NCBI GenBank assembly: GCA_002009975.1
Contig: MTLP01000017.1
Location: forward strand, 1-49,873
From: Thermococcus sp. JdFR-02
GTDB taxonomy: Archaea > Methanobacteriota_B > Thermococci > Thermococcales > Thermococcaceae
Direction of reading: 5' to 3'
DNA: 49,873 nt
Shown: positions 19,764 through 24,288 of the stretch, one piece after another
Position numbering within the stretch: position 1 is the stretch's first letter
How the letters are laid out: each line of letters starts with the position of its first letter
Program-made: the position numbers and the translations under genes
The notes under the pieces: generated by a model
Database searches by the model: none
The model's input: the letters and a program-made list of their open reading frames with translations, nothing else
What the model was told of the DNA's origin: nothing

Positions 19764-20594
19764 TTAACCCTTAATAATCTCCAAACTAACATCAAAGTTT
19801 TTAACAGAATGAGTTAACGCTCCAAGGCTTATTACGTCAATATCAAGCTTAGCATAGCTTTGAATGTTCTCCTCAGTTATGCCGCCACTCACCTCAATTT
19901 TCACTTTCTCTCTTAGACCTTCTCTTTTTAGAGCTTCAAGCGTTTCTCTTATCTGTTCTGGCGTCATGTTATCGAGCATTATAACGTCAGCGCCGAGCTT
20001 AGCGGCTTTTATGGCATCTTCTAAGCTCTCAACTTCAACCTCAACAACTTTATAGATGCTGAATTCCTTTGCCCTCTTAATTGCATCTTCAAGAGGTACT
20101 AAAGCTAAGTGATTGTCCTTGATTAAAATCGCATCGCTTAAGGAAAATCTATGCATTTCACCACAACCTAAAAGGATTGCTTTCTTGTCAAGGGGCTTTA
20201 GAAGTGTTTTCCTCGTTCCTGCTACCCTCACTTTTGGATTAACGCTTTTAACTTTCTCGACTAATTTCCTTGTTTGCGTTGCTATTCCGCTCATTCTACC
20301 AATTATATTTAAAGCCGTTCTTTCAACAAGCAAAATCTTTCTAGCGTTTCCTTCAAGTTTCATCAAAATTTGCTCTTTCTCAACTTTTTCGCCATCTTTA
20401 ACTTTCTGCTTAACTTTAACATCAAAGTGCTCAAAGAGAAGCCTAGCTTCCTCTAAACCCGCTATTACTCCACTCTGCTTTGCAATTATGATTGCTTTAG
20501 CGTTTAAATCTTCCGGGATTACGGCTTCACTTGTTACATCGCCAAAAGGAGCGTCTTCTTCCAAAAAGCGAAGGAGATAAGAGAGAGAAATCAT
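19764..20594 (-). CDS. nadC: nicotinate-nucleotide pyrophosphorylase (quinolinate PRTase)
   Basis: Converts quinolinate plus PRPP to NaMN, the third enzyme of the aspartate route to NAD. The 276-residue protein has EDAPFGDVTSEA near the N-terminus, AGTRKTLLKPLDK in the middle, KDNHL, and the barrel end EVSGGI. A GGAGGTG box precedes it. It lies 13 bases downstream of the ATPase gene rather than directly behind nadA. Confidence 0.96.
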   Translation of the reverse strand: MISLSYLLRFLEEDAPFGDVTSEAVIPEDLNAKAIIIAKQSGVIAGLEEARLLFEHFDVKVKQKVKDGEKVEKEQILMKLEGNARKILLVERTALNIIGRMSGIATQTRKLVEKVKSVNPKVRVAGTRKTLLKPLDKKAILLGCGEMHRFSLSDAILIKDNHLALVPLEDAIKRAKEFSIYKVVEVEVESLEDAIKAAKLGADVIMLDNMTPEQIRETLEALKREGLREKVKIEVSGGITEENIQSYAKLDIDVISLGALTHSVKNFDVSLEIIKG

Positions 20595-20607: not shown

Positions 20608-21933
20608 CTAAACATTCAAACAGGCTAAAAATATTGGCGCTGGAACCATTAGAGGATTAGCAGAGTACTGGTTTTTAGATAACGTAACAACATTCTTTAT
20701 CTTTCCAACCTTAACCTTTGAAGGATTTGCTCTCCTCTTCCATTTAACTTCAAAACCAAGCATATTCTCTTTTACAACAACATCTATTTCAGTTCCGTTT
20801 TTCCAATATCCAATCTCATGTTTCCTTGCTAAATGCGAAGCAACAACACTTTCAACTATCTTGGCTTTTTCCGGTTCCTCAATTAAGCACCATCTTGAGA
20901 ACATTTTATAAAAAAGGGGATCTATAAAGTGAATTTTCTTTTCCTTTCTAAATAATATCTCCCCATTGTTCGGATTAAGATACGGGAGAACTTTGAGAAT
21001 GAACATTTTTTCAAGCAAGTCTATATAATAAAACACTGTTTTATGTGAACCAACTTCAATCTCTTTAGCTATTGTATGCCAGCTGAGTGGAGAAGGAATC
21101 TTTTTAAGGAGTGCTTTAATTATTCTTCTTGCAGTGCTTTCATTCTTATAAAGTCTCGCTAAATCGCCTCTAATCCAGCTTAAGTAAGTTTCATAAACTT
21201 CTCCCTTTACAAAACCATTTTCCAAGATTGATTTAACTGCCAGTGGAAAACCTCCACTCCTCAAATACATCTCAAATAGTTTGTATATCTCATCACTCCA
21301 AGGCATTAACTTAAAACACTTCTCTCTTATCTCTTTGTCATTGAGTTCTTTTAATGGTTCGATTTTATTGTAAAGTTCTTCATCGGCGACTTTAATGAAT
21401 TCTCTGAAGCTTAGAGGATACATAGTAAAGTCTTTTCCTCTTCCCCTTCTTCCGGGAAACGTTTCGACTTCTCCTTTTACATGCATACTCAACGAACCCG
21501 TTAAAACTAAAACATCATTTCTTGTTTTTCCCATGTCAATATAGAGTTTTATAGCCCTGAACCAATCCTTTGGAAATGTTATCTCATCTAAAAAGATATA
21601 TGAACTTTCAATTCCTTCTATTTTCCTAAATTCGAAGTACTCTTCCAACGCTTCCATAAGCTCTTTGTAGTCACCTAAATAATCACACCTCAAGTAGAAG
21701 ATTGCTTTTGGATCTACACCCTTCTCAAGAAGCGAGTTAATTAGTAGCTTTATAAGTGTCGTTTTTCCAACCTGTCTTGGCCCAAAGACAAAGTGGAGGG
21801 AAAAGGGTTTCAAGCTTATCTGTTCGGCTAATTTGGGAATCCATTTTACCTTGCTTTCATTCCATTTTCTGAAGTCTTCATCTTCAGCTATGTGCTCCTT
21901 CCCCTTCCACCATGGATTAAATGTCTCGATCAT
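20608..21933 (-). CDS. archaeal AAA ATPase with DUF4143-type C-terminus
   Basis: P-loop ATPase of the archaeal AAA_14/DUF4143 group (441 residues). Walker A is GPRQVGKTT (about 51-59), and a Walker B-like YIFLDE is followed by a TGS sensor region. The C-terminal nuclease-like domain contains EIDVVV...GFEVKW, a D-ExK pattern. The biological role of the family is not settled. I chose the ATG at 21933: the longer frame from 21957 would run through the palindrome at 21934-21954, and a TATA box at 21957-21965 predicts a leaderless message beginning near 21935. It splits nadA from nadC, which suggests insertion into an ancestral nad operon. Confidence 0.8.
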   Translation of the reverse strand: MIETFNPWWKGKEHIAEDEDFRKWNESKVKWIPKLAEQISLKPFSLHFVFGPRQVGKTTLIKLLINSLLEKGVDPKAIFYLRCDYLGDYKELMEALEEYFEFRKIEGIESSYIFLDEITFPKDWFRAIKLYIDMGKTRNDVLVLTGSLSMHVKGEVETFPGRRGRGKDFTMYPLSFREFIKVADEELYNKIEPLKELNDKEIREKCFKLMPWSDEIYKLFEMYLRSGGFPLAVKSILENGFVKGEVYETYLSWIRGDLARLYKNESTARRIIKALLKKIPSPLSWHTIAKEIEVGSHKTVFYYIDLLEKMFILKVLPYLNPNNGEILFRKEKKIHFIDPLFYKMFSRWCLIEEPEKAKIVESVVASHLARKHEIGYWKNGTEIDVVVKENMLGFEVKWKRRANPSKVKVGKIKNVVTLSKNQYSANPLMVPAPIFLACLNV

Positions 21934-21954
21934 ATTGGTAATTATATTACCAAT
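21934..21954. promoter_or_regulatory. palindrome A at the ATPase start
   Basis: ATTGGTAAT-TAT-ATTACCAAT, a perfect dyad that abuts the chosen ATG of the ATPase gene and covers the predicted transcript start. Its twin lies 34 bases away on the other side of the TATA box. Confidence 0.7.
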
Positions 21955-21967
21955 CATTTAAAAAGAT

Positions 21968-21988
21968 ATTGGTAATGAGATTACCAAT
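21968..21988. promoter_or_regulatory. palindrome B upstream of the ATPase TATA box
   Basis: ATTGGTAAT-GAG-ATTACCAAT, identical arms to palindrome A with a different 3-base spacer. It starts just after the nadA stop. The TATA-like CTTTTTAAA (minus strand, 21957-21965) lies between the two copies. Confidence 0.7.
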
Positions 21989-21991
21989 TGA

Positions 21992-22894
21992 TTAATCACT
22001 TAACTTAAGCATCCTCTCTATAGCTTTCCTCGCTCTTTCAGCTATGTCTTTTGGCACTTCAATTTCATATTTCTCGTCTCTTAAGGATTCATAGATATGC
22101 TTAAGCGTTATTGACTTCATTCCGATACAAAAAGCGTCTTCATTAGCAGGGTAGAATCTTTTATTTGGATAGAGCTTCTTTAGACGATAAACCATCTCCT
22201 TTTCCGTAAAGACAACCCATTCATCATAGAGACAAGCGTTTCTAACCATTCCTCCAGTTGAGACTATTAAATCGGCTTTTTCTTGAACTTCTGGATTACA
22301 TTCTGGGTGAACCATTAGTTTAGCCTTTGGATAGACAGTCATTGCTCTTTCTACGTCTTCAATTGTGAACTTTTTGTGAACATAACAGTGTCCTCCTTCT
22401 GGAATTGGAATAATCTTTTTGTTAGTTCTCTCTGCTACATAGTAGGCTAAATTATTGTCAGGTCCAAAGATGATTTCATCTGCATCAAGCTTTTGAACAA
22501 TTTTAACAGCATTTGCCGATGTAACAGTTACGTCAGCGTAGGCTTTTGTTTCTGCTGTTGTATTGACGTAAAGAACCACTGAAGCCTCTGGATACCTTCT
22601 CTTAGCCTCTAAGATATGCTCTATTTTAAGCATGTTAGCCATTACACATGTTGCCCTCTTGCTGGGTAGGAGAACTTTCTTTTGGGGATTTAGGATTTTG
22701 GCTGTTTCTGCCATAAAATCAACACCTGCAAAAACAATGATATCTGCATCTATTCTTTGGGATTTTCTAGCTAACTCTAGGCTATCCCCAACAAAATCCG
22801 CTATATCTTGGATCTCAGGCAATTGGTAGTTATGTGCTAAAATTATAGCGTTTTTCTCCTCCTTAAGCTTTAAAATTTCATCAACCAAATTCAC
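21992..22894 (-). CDS. nadA: quinolinate synthase
   Basis: Condenses iminoaspartate with dihydroxyacetone phosphate to quinolinate using a [4Fe-4S] cluster. The 300-residue protein has [19 protein letters not shown] near the N-terminus and three cluster cysteines in the expected segments ([25 protein letters not shown]). I chose the GTG at 22894: GGAGGT lies 7 bases upstream and GTGA overlaps the nadB stop. An earlier in-frame GTG at 22903 is part of the ribosome-binding site. Confidence 0.96.
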
Positions 22895-24288
22895 AGTAAA
22901 CACCTCCCATCAAAAATGCTGAATCTTTCGAACTCTTTTTTCATAAAAGGATAATCTTCCCTATAATGAACACCCCTACTCTCTCTTCTTGCTAAAGCAC
23001 ACTCTAAGATACCTCTAACCAAAAGCTTAATTCTCTCATCAACTTCAATCCTCTCAATCTTTCTTAGTCCTTCTTTAAGTCCCTTCTCGCTCCTCACAAT
23101 TCCTGCATAGTTCCAGAGAATTTCTTTAACACTCTCAATATCACCGAGCTCTTGAGTGGTGTCTTTGATTTCTTTAACCTCTTTAACTCTTGGATTGTCT
23201 CTCACTATTGTTCTTGCAACCTCTAATCCACTAATTACGCATTCTAAAAGAGAATTACTCGCCAGTCTATTTGCCCCATGAAAGCCGTTATCAGCTGTTT
23301 CACCAATTGCGTAGAGATTCTCAACGTTAGTTCTATAATAAAGATCAACCCTCAAACCACCGATAGAATAATGGGCAATTGGAGTTACTGGAATTAGGTC
23401 TTTTTCTGGATTAATTCCCTCTTTGGTTAAAAACATGTAAATTTGTGGAAACTTTTCCTTAAAATCCTCAATTTTTGTTGCATCTAAGTAAACCTTCTTT
23501 CCTTTTTGTATTTGCCTGTAAATTGCCCTTGCAACAATATCTCTCGGTTCAAGCTCGTTGATGAACCTTTCTCCGTCCTCATTGATTAGTTTAGCTCCTG
23601 CTCCCCTTACGGCTTCGCTTATAAGCTTAACATCCTTACCAATAAAACCAGTTGGATGGAACTGTATAAATTCCAAATTACTCGCTAAAGCACCTTTCAT
23701 CAAAGCATCTCCTATTAAAATGCCTAAGTTTAAAGAAGAACCTGCTGTAAATTTATATAAAGCTGTATACCCTCCAGTTGCTAAGATAGTGGCATCAAAC
23801 TTTAAAAGTTCCCCATTAAGGAAAACACCGTAGCAGTTACCCTCCTCTATTGCTAGCGAAGAAGCAAAACCCTTTATGAATTGAACACCAAGCTCTTTAG
23901 CCCTTAAATAAAGAAGCTTTGTCATATGTTTTCCAGTTTCGTTTTTAATGGTGAAAATTCTCGGAAAGCTGTGTCCTCCTTCAATCTCATTTTCCTCAAA
24001 GTTTAAACCAAGAGAAAGCAAAAAATCATAAGCTTCACTGGATTTTGAAATCACATTCCACACAACTTCCTCATTGTTTAAATAGCGTCCAGCTTTAATC
24101 GTGTCTAAAACATGAGATCTTATTGAATCCCCTTCTAAAATTGGAAAAGCAATCCCAGCCTGAGCTAAATAAGAGTTCGTCTCTTTTATGCCTTTTCCAA
24201 TAAGAGTAACTTCAAAACCTTTCCTAGCTAAGGATATCGAAGCTGTTAATCCTGCTATCCCCTCTCCAATAATCCCAATTCTTGCCAT
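22891..24288 (-). CDS. nadB: L-aspartate oxidase
   Basis: FAD enzyme oxidising aspartate to iminoaspartate, the first step of the aspartate-to-NAD route. The 465-residue protein has the N-terminal FAD motif [14 protein letters not shown], the central [19 protein letters not shown] and [10 protein letters not shown] segments, and [13 protein letters not shown] near residue 345. It is the first gene of nadB-nadA, which are start-stop coupled. The promoter carries the palindrome at 24297-24312. Confidence 0.95.

Follow-up and report, generated by a model that had tools for sequence, protein, structure and literature searches.

The closest described relatives of the ATPase considered here are the COG1373-like proteins that combine an AAA_14 domain with a DUF4143 domain, the family that includes PDC-S01, a phage-defence candidate in PADLOC; this family has been described from the protein alone, whereas the operators reported below are a feature of promoters. 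No account of autoregulation or of operators for the DUF4143 family was found in the open-access papers examined, most subscription journals being outside that scope. An AAA+ core followed by a winged helix-turn-helix (wHTH) is likewise found in archaeal Orc1/Cdc6 proteins, which are not known to have a C-terminal PD-(D/E)XK domain. Mobile genes with paired palindromic operators at their own promoter are known from restriction-modification C proteins and toxin-antitoxin repressors; there the regulator is a small partner protein, whereas here the presumed repressor is the ATPase-nuclease itself. Archaeal repressors acting at core promoter elements are stand-alone DNA-binding proteins with palindromic sites at those elements. 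The TrmB family is one example of repressors that occlude the TATA/BRE region (PMC4158304). TrmB-type repressors are dedicated regulators with targets of their own, whereas at the present locus the operator is apparently private to a single gene.

We analysed a stretch of 49,873 nt from Thermococcus sp. JdFR-02 (the window), in which, as an earlier note on this DNA had stated, an ATPase gene lies between nadA and nadC; all three genes are on the minus strand (Table 1). The pattern ATTGGTAAT-N3-ATTACCAAT occurs twice around the TATA box of this gene, each time with 0 mismatches, and the window contains no further copy. The description of these sites as twin identical palindromes 34 bases apart holds for their arms, which are the same in both copies, and for the start-to-start distance; the 3-bp spacers differ (TAT vs GAG) and the gap between the dyads, which contains the TATA box, is 13 bp. 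The distal dyad lies directly upstream of the TATA box and a few bases past the nadA stop codon, and the proximal dyad is predicted to occupy the whole interval between the TATA box and the start of a transcript that, because the TATA-to-ATG distance is ~26 bp, is predicted to be leaderless. The earlier note had placed one dyad over the predicted transcript start and one upstream of TATA, and its observation is confirmed. For the dyad pattern at ≤ 3 mismatches, 0.09 matches would be expected by chance, and two matches occurred in no shuffle. A search of the 2.36-Mb genome, proposed earlier as a check, returned these two promoter sites as the only exact copies, the sole extra match being one AT-rich site with 3 mismatches. 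The longest version of the ORF (449 aa) would start at 21957, overlapping the TATA box; this start is unlikely and the ATG at 21933, directly after the proximal dyad, is probably the true one, because orthologues begin with MIE-FNPWW at this position.

Table 1. Features of the ATPase locus (positions in the window; a full stop marks features assigned to neither strand)
Feature	Position	Strand	Basis or remark
nadA, upstream flank	21992–22903	-	
Distal operator dyad (putative), ATTGGTAAT-GAG-ATTACCAAT	21968–21988	.	Sequence; kept in orthologues
TATA box, CTTTTTAAAT	21956–21965	-	Sequence; in gap between dyads
Proximal operator dyad (putative), ATTGGTAAT-TAT-ATTACCAAT	21934–21954	.	Abuts ATG 21933
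AAA_14-wHTH-DUF4143 ATPase, 441 aa (stop codon 20608–20610)	20608–21933	-	ORF; start from orthologue alignment; Pfam; AlphaFold2
AAA_14 P-loop domain (Walker A GPRQVGKT, Walker B FLDE)	21397–21792	-	
wHTH, residues 265–336 (recognition helix, residues 297–309, at 21045–21007)	20926–21141	-	AlphaFold2; operator-covariation peak
C-terminal PD-(D/E)XK nuclease-like part, residues 356–441	20611–20868	-	
nadC, downstream flank	19764–20594	-	Directly after nadA in nearest relatives

The encoded protein scores above the Pfam cut-offs for AAA_14 (E 3e-27; 95.6 bits vs 27) and for the C-terminal DUF4143 domain (E 8e-14; 52.2 bits vs 28.1), and below the curated cut-off for ATPase_2 (PF01637; 30.5 bits vs 33.2); its match to the PDC-S01 profile (E 8.6e-40) places it in the same protein family. 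An AlphaFold2 model (17 sequences; mean pLDDT 91) sets a predicted wHTH, with helices at residues 265–278, 285–292 and 297–309 and wing strands at 313–319 and 331–336, between the ATPase domain and a PD-(D/E)XK-like sheet. Residues G51, K57, T58, D116, E117, E382, D384, E395 and K397 are invariant across archaea and bacteria, and E361 is nearly so; judged from the alignment, the Walker and the PD-(D/E)XK nuclease motifs are intact. The top fold matches in the PDB are Orc1/Cdc6 proteins bound to DNA (2qby and 2v1u), with a TM-score of about 0.3–0.4 and 10–14 % identity, so that the ATPase is not a full-length Orc1/Cdc6 homologue, and whereas Orc1/Cdc6 sites mark the origin, those assigned to the ATPase bracket a TATA box.

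We sampled 108 ATPase-family promoters from the class Thermococci and scored each by its best pair of similar dyads, with shuffles and window tiles as controls. The 99th percentile of these controls was exceeded by 97 promoters, 82 of which have a spacing of exactly 34 bp with TATA between the dyads, and 11 of the 108 showed no clear dyad pair. Dyad sequence is specific to the ATPase subfamily: TTGGTAAT in subfamily A, to which the gene between nadA and nadC belongs, TGAGAACT in subfamilies B/H, TTGATA in C, TTTGCAGT (often in three copies) in D, TGTAAAGT in E and TGTGAAAGT in F. These operator classes track protein clades, with 14 changes on the tree vs 65 when shuffled; the labels were assigned automatically and a few rows are wrong (e.g. 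L101, L070, L113 and L110), so the count of 14 is inflated. Class-wide, the B and D dyads are found mostly at ATPase promoters, and a reversed control pattern gave zero matches. The earlier note had considered a regulator common to a family of such ATPases; as operator sequences differ by subfamily, one shared regulator for all of them was rejected, and the family-wide, clade-private twin-operator rule is new in comparison with that note. Promoters of D-type genes (L075 and L081–L092) often contain three dyads at intervals of ~34 bp, which enclose two TATA-like boxes, and two promoters of family f3 (L066 and L067) contain the direct repeat GAGTTGTTAAAAA twice, ~34 bp apart, and no palindromes. 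In the source genome itself, the AAA_14 relatives have promoters unlike the dyad promoter of the nadA–nadC ATPase: one gene (G000:C1:215243, L283) has its TATA box between two TGTGATTATAAACCACA-like dyads with 34-bp spacing, and three (L286, L288 and L289) have other dyads near their starts.

Outside Thermococcales, twin dyads were detected at named genome loci for nine of 14 archaeal members (p 1e-12; two of these 14 loci belong to Thermococci) and for nine of 61 bacterial members (p 2.5e-6); the corresponding share among 416 control genes drawn from these loci is 1 %. Spacing in these members is mostly 32–35 bp, with 40–43 bp in several bacteria, values near three or four turns of the helix. 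ATPases of the related family PF01637 gave no twin-dyad signal (0/30; maximum score 24), and twin dyads as a general feature of archaeal ATPases were rejected on this basis. Plasmid and phage collections yielded distant relatives of the ATPase only.

Comparison of the nadA–nadC junction among relatives, also proposed earlier, showed it to be empty in the two nearest ones (G111 and G112), where nadC follows nadA after ~13 bp; in the source genome the operator–ORF unit is inserted between the nadA stop codon and the nadC ribosome-binding site. Orthologues are found at unrelated loci with the dyad in front of the ATPase gene, and their promoters have (T)ATTTTTAAA at the position matching the TATA box. 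Homology between orthologues starts at the distal dyad and stops near the stop codon, and their loci have no neighbours in common except between close genomes; therefore, no separate regulator gene moves with the operator. Furthermore, decayed subfamily-A ATPases were identified in three genomes. One has an early stop and retains its dyads (L013, G029), one is split (L015, G105) and one is a C-terminal remnant beside another ATPase gene (L096:895–2757, G106). Because the junction is empty or differently filled and broken A copies occur elsewhere, the gene, on this comparison, is accessory and has been gained and lost repeatedly, in keeping with its earlier description as an inserted accessory element. 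A one-mismatch dyad copy in G106, inside an apparent RNA polymerase A'' gene, was taken as chance. At the nadA–nadC junction of four other Thermococcaceae loci (L125:2397–3741, L129, L139 and L146) there is a different AAA_14–DUF4143 ATPase, identified by Pfam, whose TATA box is flanked on both sides by a wide inverted repeat, TTAAGTATGGAGGTAAA ... TTTACCTCTATACTTAAC. Three loci of genus g3 (L133, L134 and L138) have an acetyltransferase-like (GNAT) gene between nadA and nadC, and the junction therefore takes unrelated genes too. D-type ATPase genes convergent with nadA also occur beside its 3' end (G026:C1:78655–80757 and G028:C1:1315268–1317336).

In order to relate operators to the protein, operator divergence among 89 Thermococcales proteins was compared with divergence in windows along the sequence, whole-protein divergence being removed. 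The best window comprises residues 285–300 (partial r 0.59), which run from HTH helix 2 through the turn into the first part of the recognition helix; this peak stays in four of five leave-one-clade-out runs, and under balanced subsampling a peak lay inside the HTH in just 11 of 30 draws. A deep cross-clade test with 24 taxa was not significant (partial Mantel p 0.10), whilst its nearest-neighbour version was borderline (p 0.05; HTH window sixth of 433). Individual helix and operator combinations recur across clades: SPHT with TTTGCA in D-type genes and Bathyarchaeota (L148), SHxTVREY with TTGATA in C-type genes and Diapherotrites (L158), SYK with AGAA in B-type genes and Thermoproteota (L149) and, by eye, SHNT with TTGTCAA-like sites in L150, L154 and L156. 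As both 24-taxon tests were made after individual matches (L158 with C-type, L148 with D-type) were known, and are therefore post hoc, and as their p values are 0.05–0.10, this pairing is treated as a lead.

The reading that we consider probable is a mobile, self-repressing ATPase-nuclease, the internal wHTH of which would bind the dyads of its own promoter. The earlier note had suggested tight repression, perhaps exerted by the ATPase, and comparison supports this with the ATPase as the probable repressor, as orthologous ATPases carry the dyads; co-travel of dyads and gene, the uniqueness of the dyad in the genome and the HTH covariation favour binding by the ATPase. The segment from 21988 down to 20608 would be a small mobile gene, its ORF preceded by a TATA box between two operators, and the wHTH of the AAA+ ATPase would place one dimer on each dyad. 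As the dyads are about three helical turns apart, bound dimers could cooperate. Occupation of the distal dyad would cover the BRE/upstream side and that of the proximal dyad the TATA-to-start interval, so that TBP, TFB and RNA polymerase would be excluded and the ATPase-nuclease, whose purpose as a nuclease is presumed, held at a low, self-limited level. Release would perhaps follow from ATP state or from a signal of an invading element. Operator and recognition helix would co-diversify, thereby making each subfamily a private circuit that moves with its gene.

We think it unlikely that the dyad pairs are instead bound by a separate transcription factor, encoded elsewhere and regulating the ATPase in trans. 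Such a factor would have to be a distinct, dedicated one for every subfamily, the dyad in the source genome is found at the ATPase promoter only, nothing conserved flanks the gene and operator divergence tracks the ATPase's own HTH. Speaking for it, twin dyads are retained where the cognate ATPase is missing. About twelve Thermococcus genomes have B-type twin dyads at the 3' end of yjbQ with no ATPase next to them (L231–L244 and L028, with TATA and no ATPase ORF); these dyads abut the yjbQ stop codon at what is nearly always one junction. In three genomes with orphan dyads (G039, G041 and G045), a search at E 1e-60 gave no B ATPase at any locus; as a result, a second dyad reader or recent losses must be allowed. 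Recent losses, spread of the empty allele or a second reader would each explain these orphans, which count against exclusive autoregulation.

At yjbQ, occupied sites have exactly the same junction as empty ones and the two states are intermingled on the yjbQ tree, and the unit is mobile, bounded by the distal dyad and a point just past the stop codon. Both observations would suit dyads that are nuclease or gene-movement sites (transposon-like ends or a homing target), with their promoter position being secondary. We regard this as rather less probable than a trans factor, given that the dyads lie at a single end of the unit and not both, that geometry around the TATA box is constant across very different loci, that the third D-type dyad adds a second TATA interval and no terminal copy, and that inspection of the nadA–nadC insertion by eye showed no target-site duplication. 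Least credible, and in our view highly improbable, are dyads that serve as nucleic-acid structure, a cruciform or mRNA hairpin, and are no protein sites. Single-strand folding is indeed far beyond that of shuffles (z -4.8), but such folding is expected of any dyad pair, and clade-specific sequence conservation is more than a hairpin requires. The proximal dyad, moreover, stops at the start codon of the predicted leaderless mRNA and would therefore be untranscribed from the ATPase promoter. An RNA element was likewise rejected, as the dyad region has no match in Rfam.

AAA_14–DUF4143 ATPases are accessory genes that are widespread in archaea and bacteria, and the twin private operators would provide a first concrete candidate activity for the family, namely sequence-specific self-repression. 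As a tentative extension, which we hold to be possible and well short of expected, the whole family may consist of self-repressing ATPase-nucleases, each with a private operator pair three or four helical turns apart and a short recognition-helix code that sets the operator (SPHT with TTTGCA, SHxT with TTGATA or TTGTCA, and SYK with AGAA being leads), thereby insulating many mobile copies per genome. Each subfamily would gain a ready candidate DNA ligand, and the coexistence of many mobile copies would be explained. Within the nad operon, the predicted repressor-bound element may alter expression of nadC, and the role of the family, whether in defence, selfish survival or otherwise, would become approachable through de-repression.
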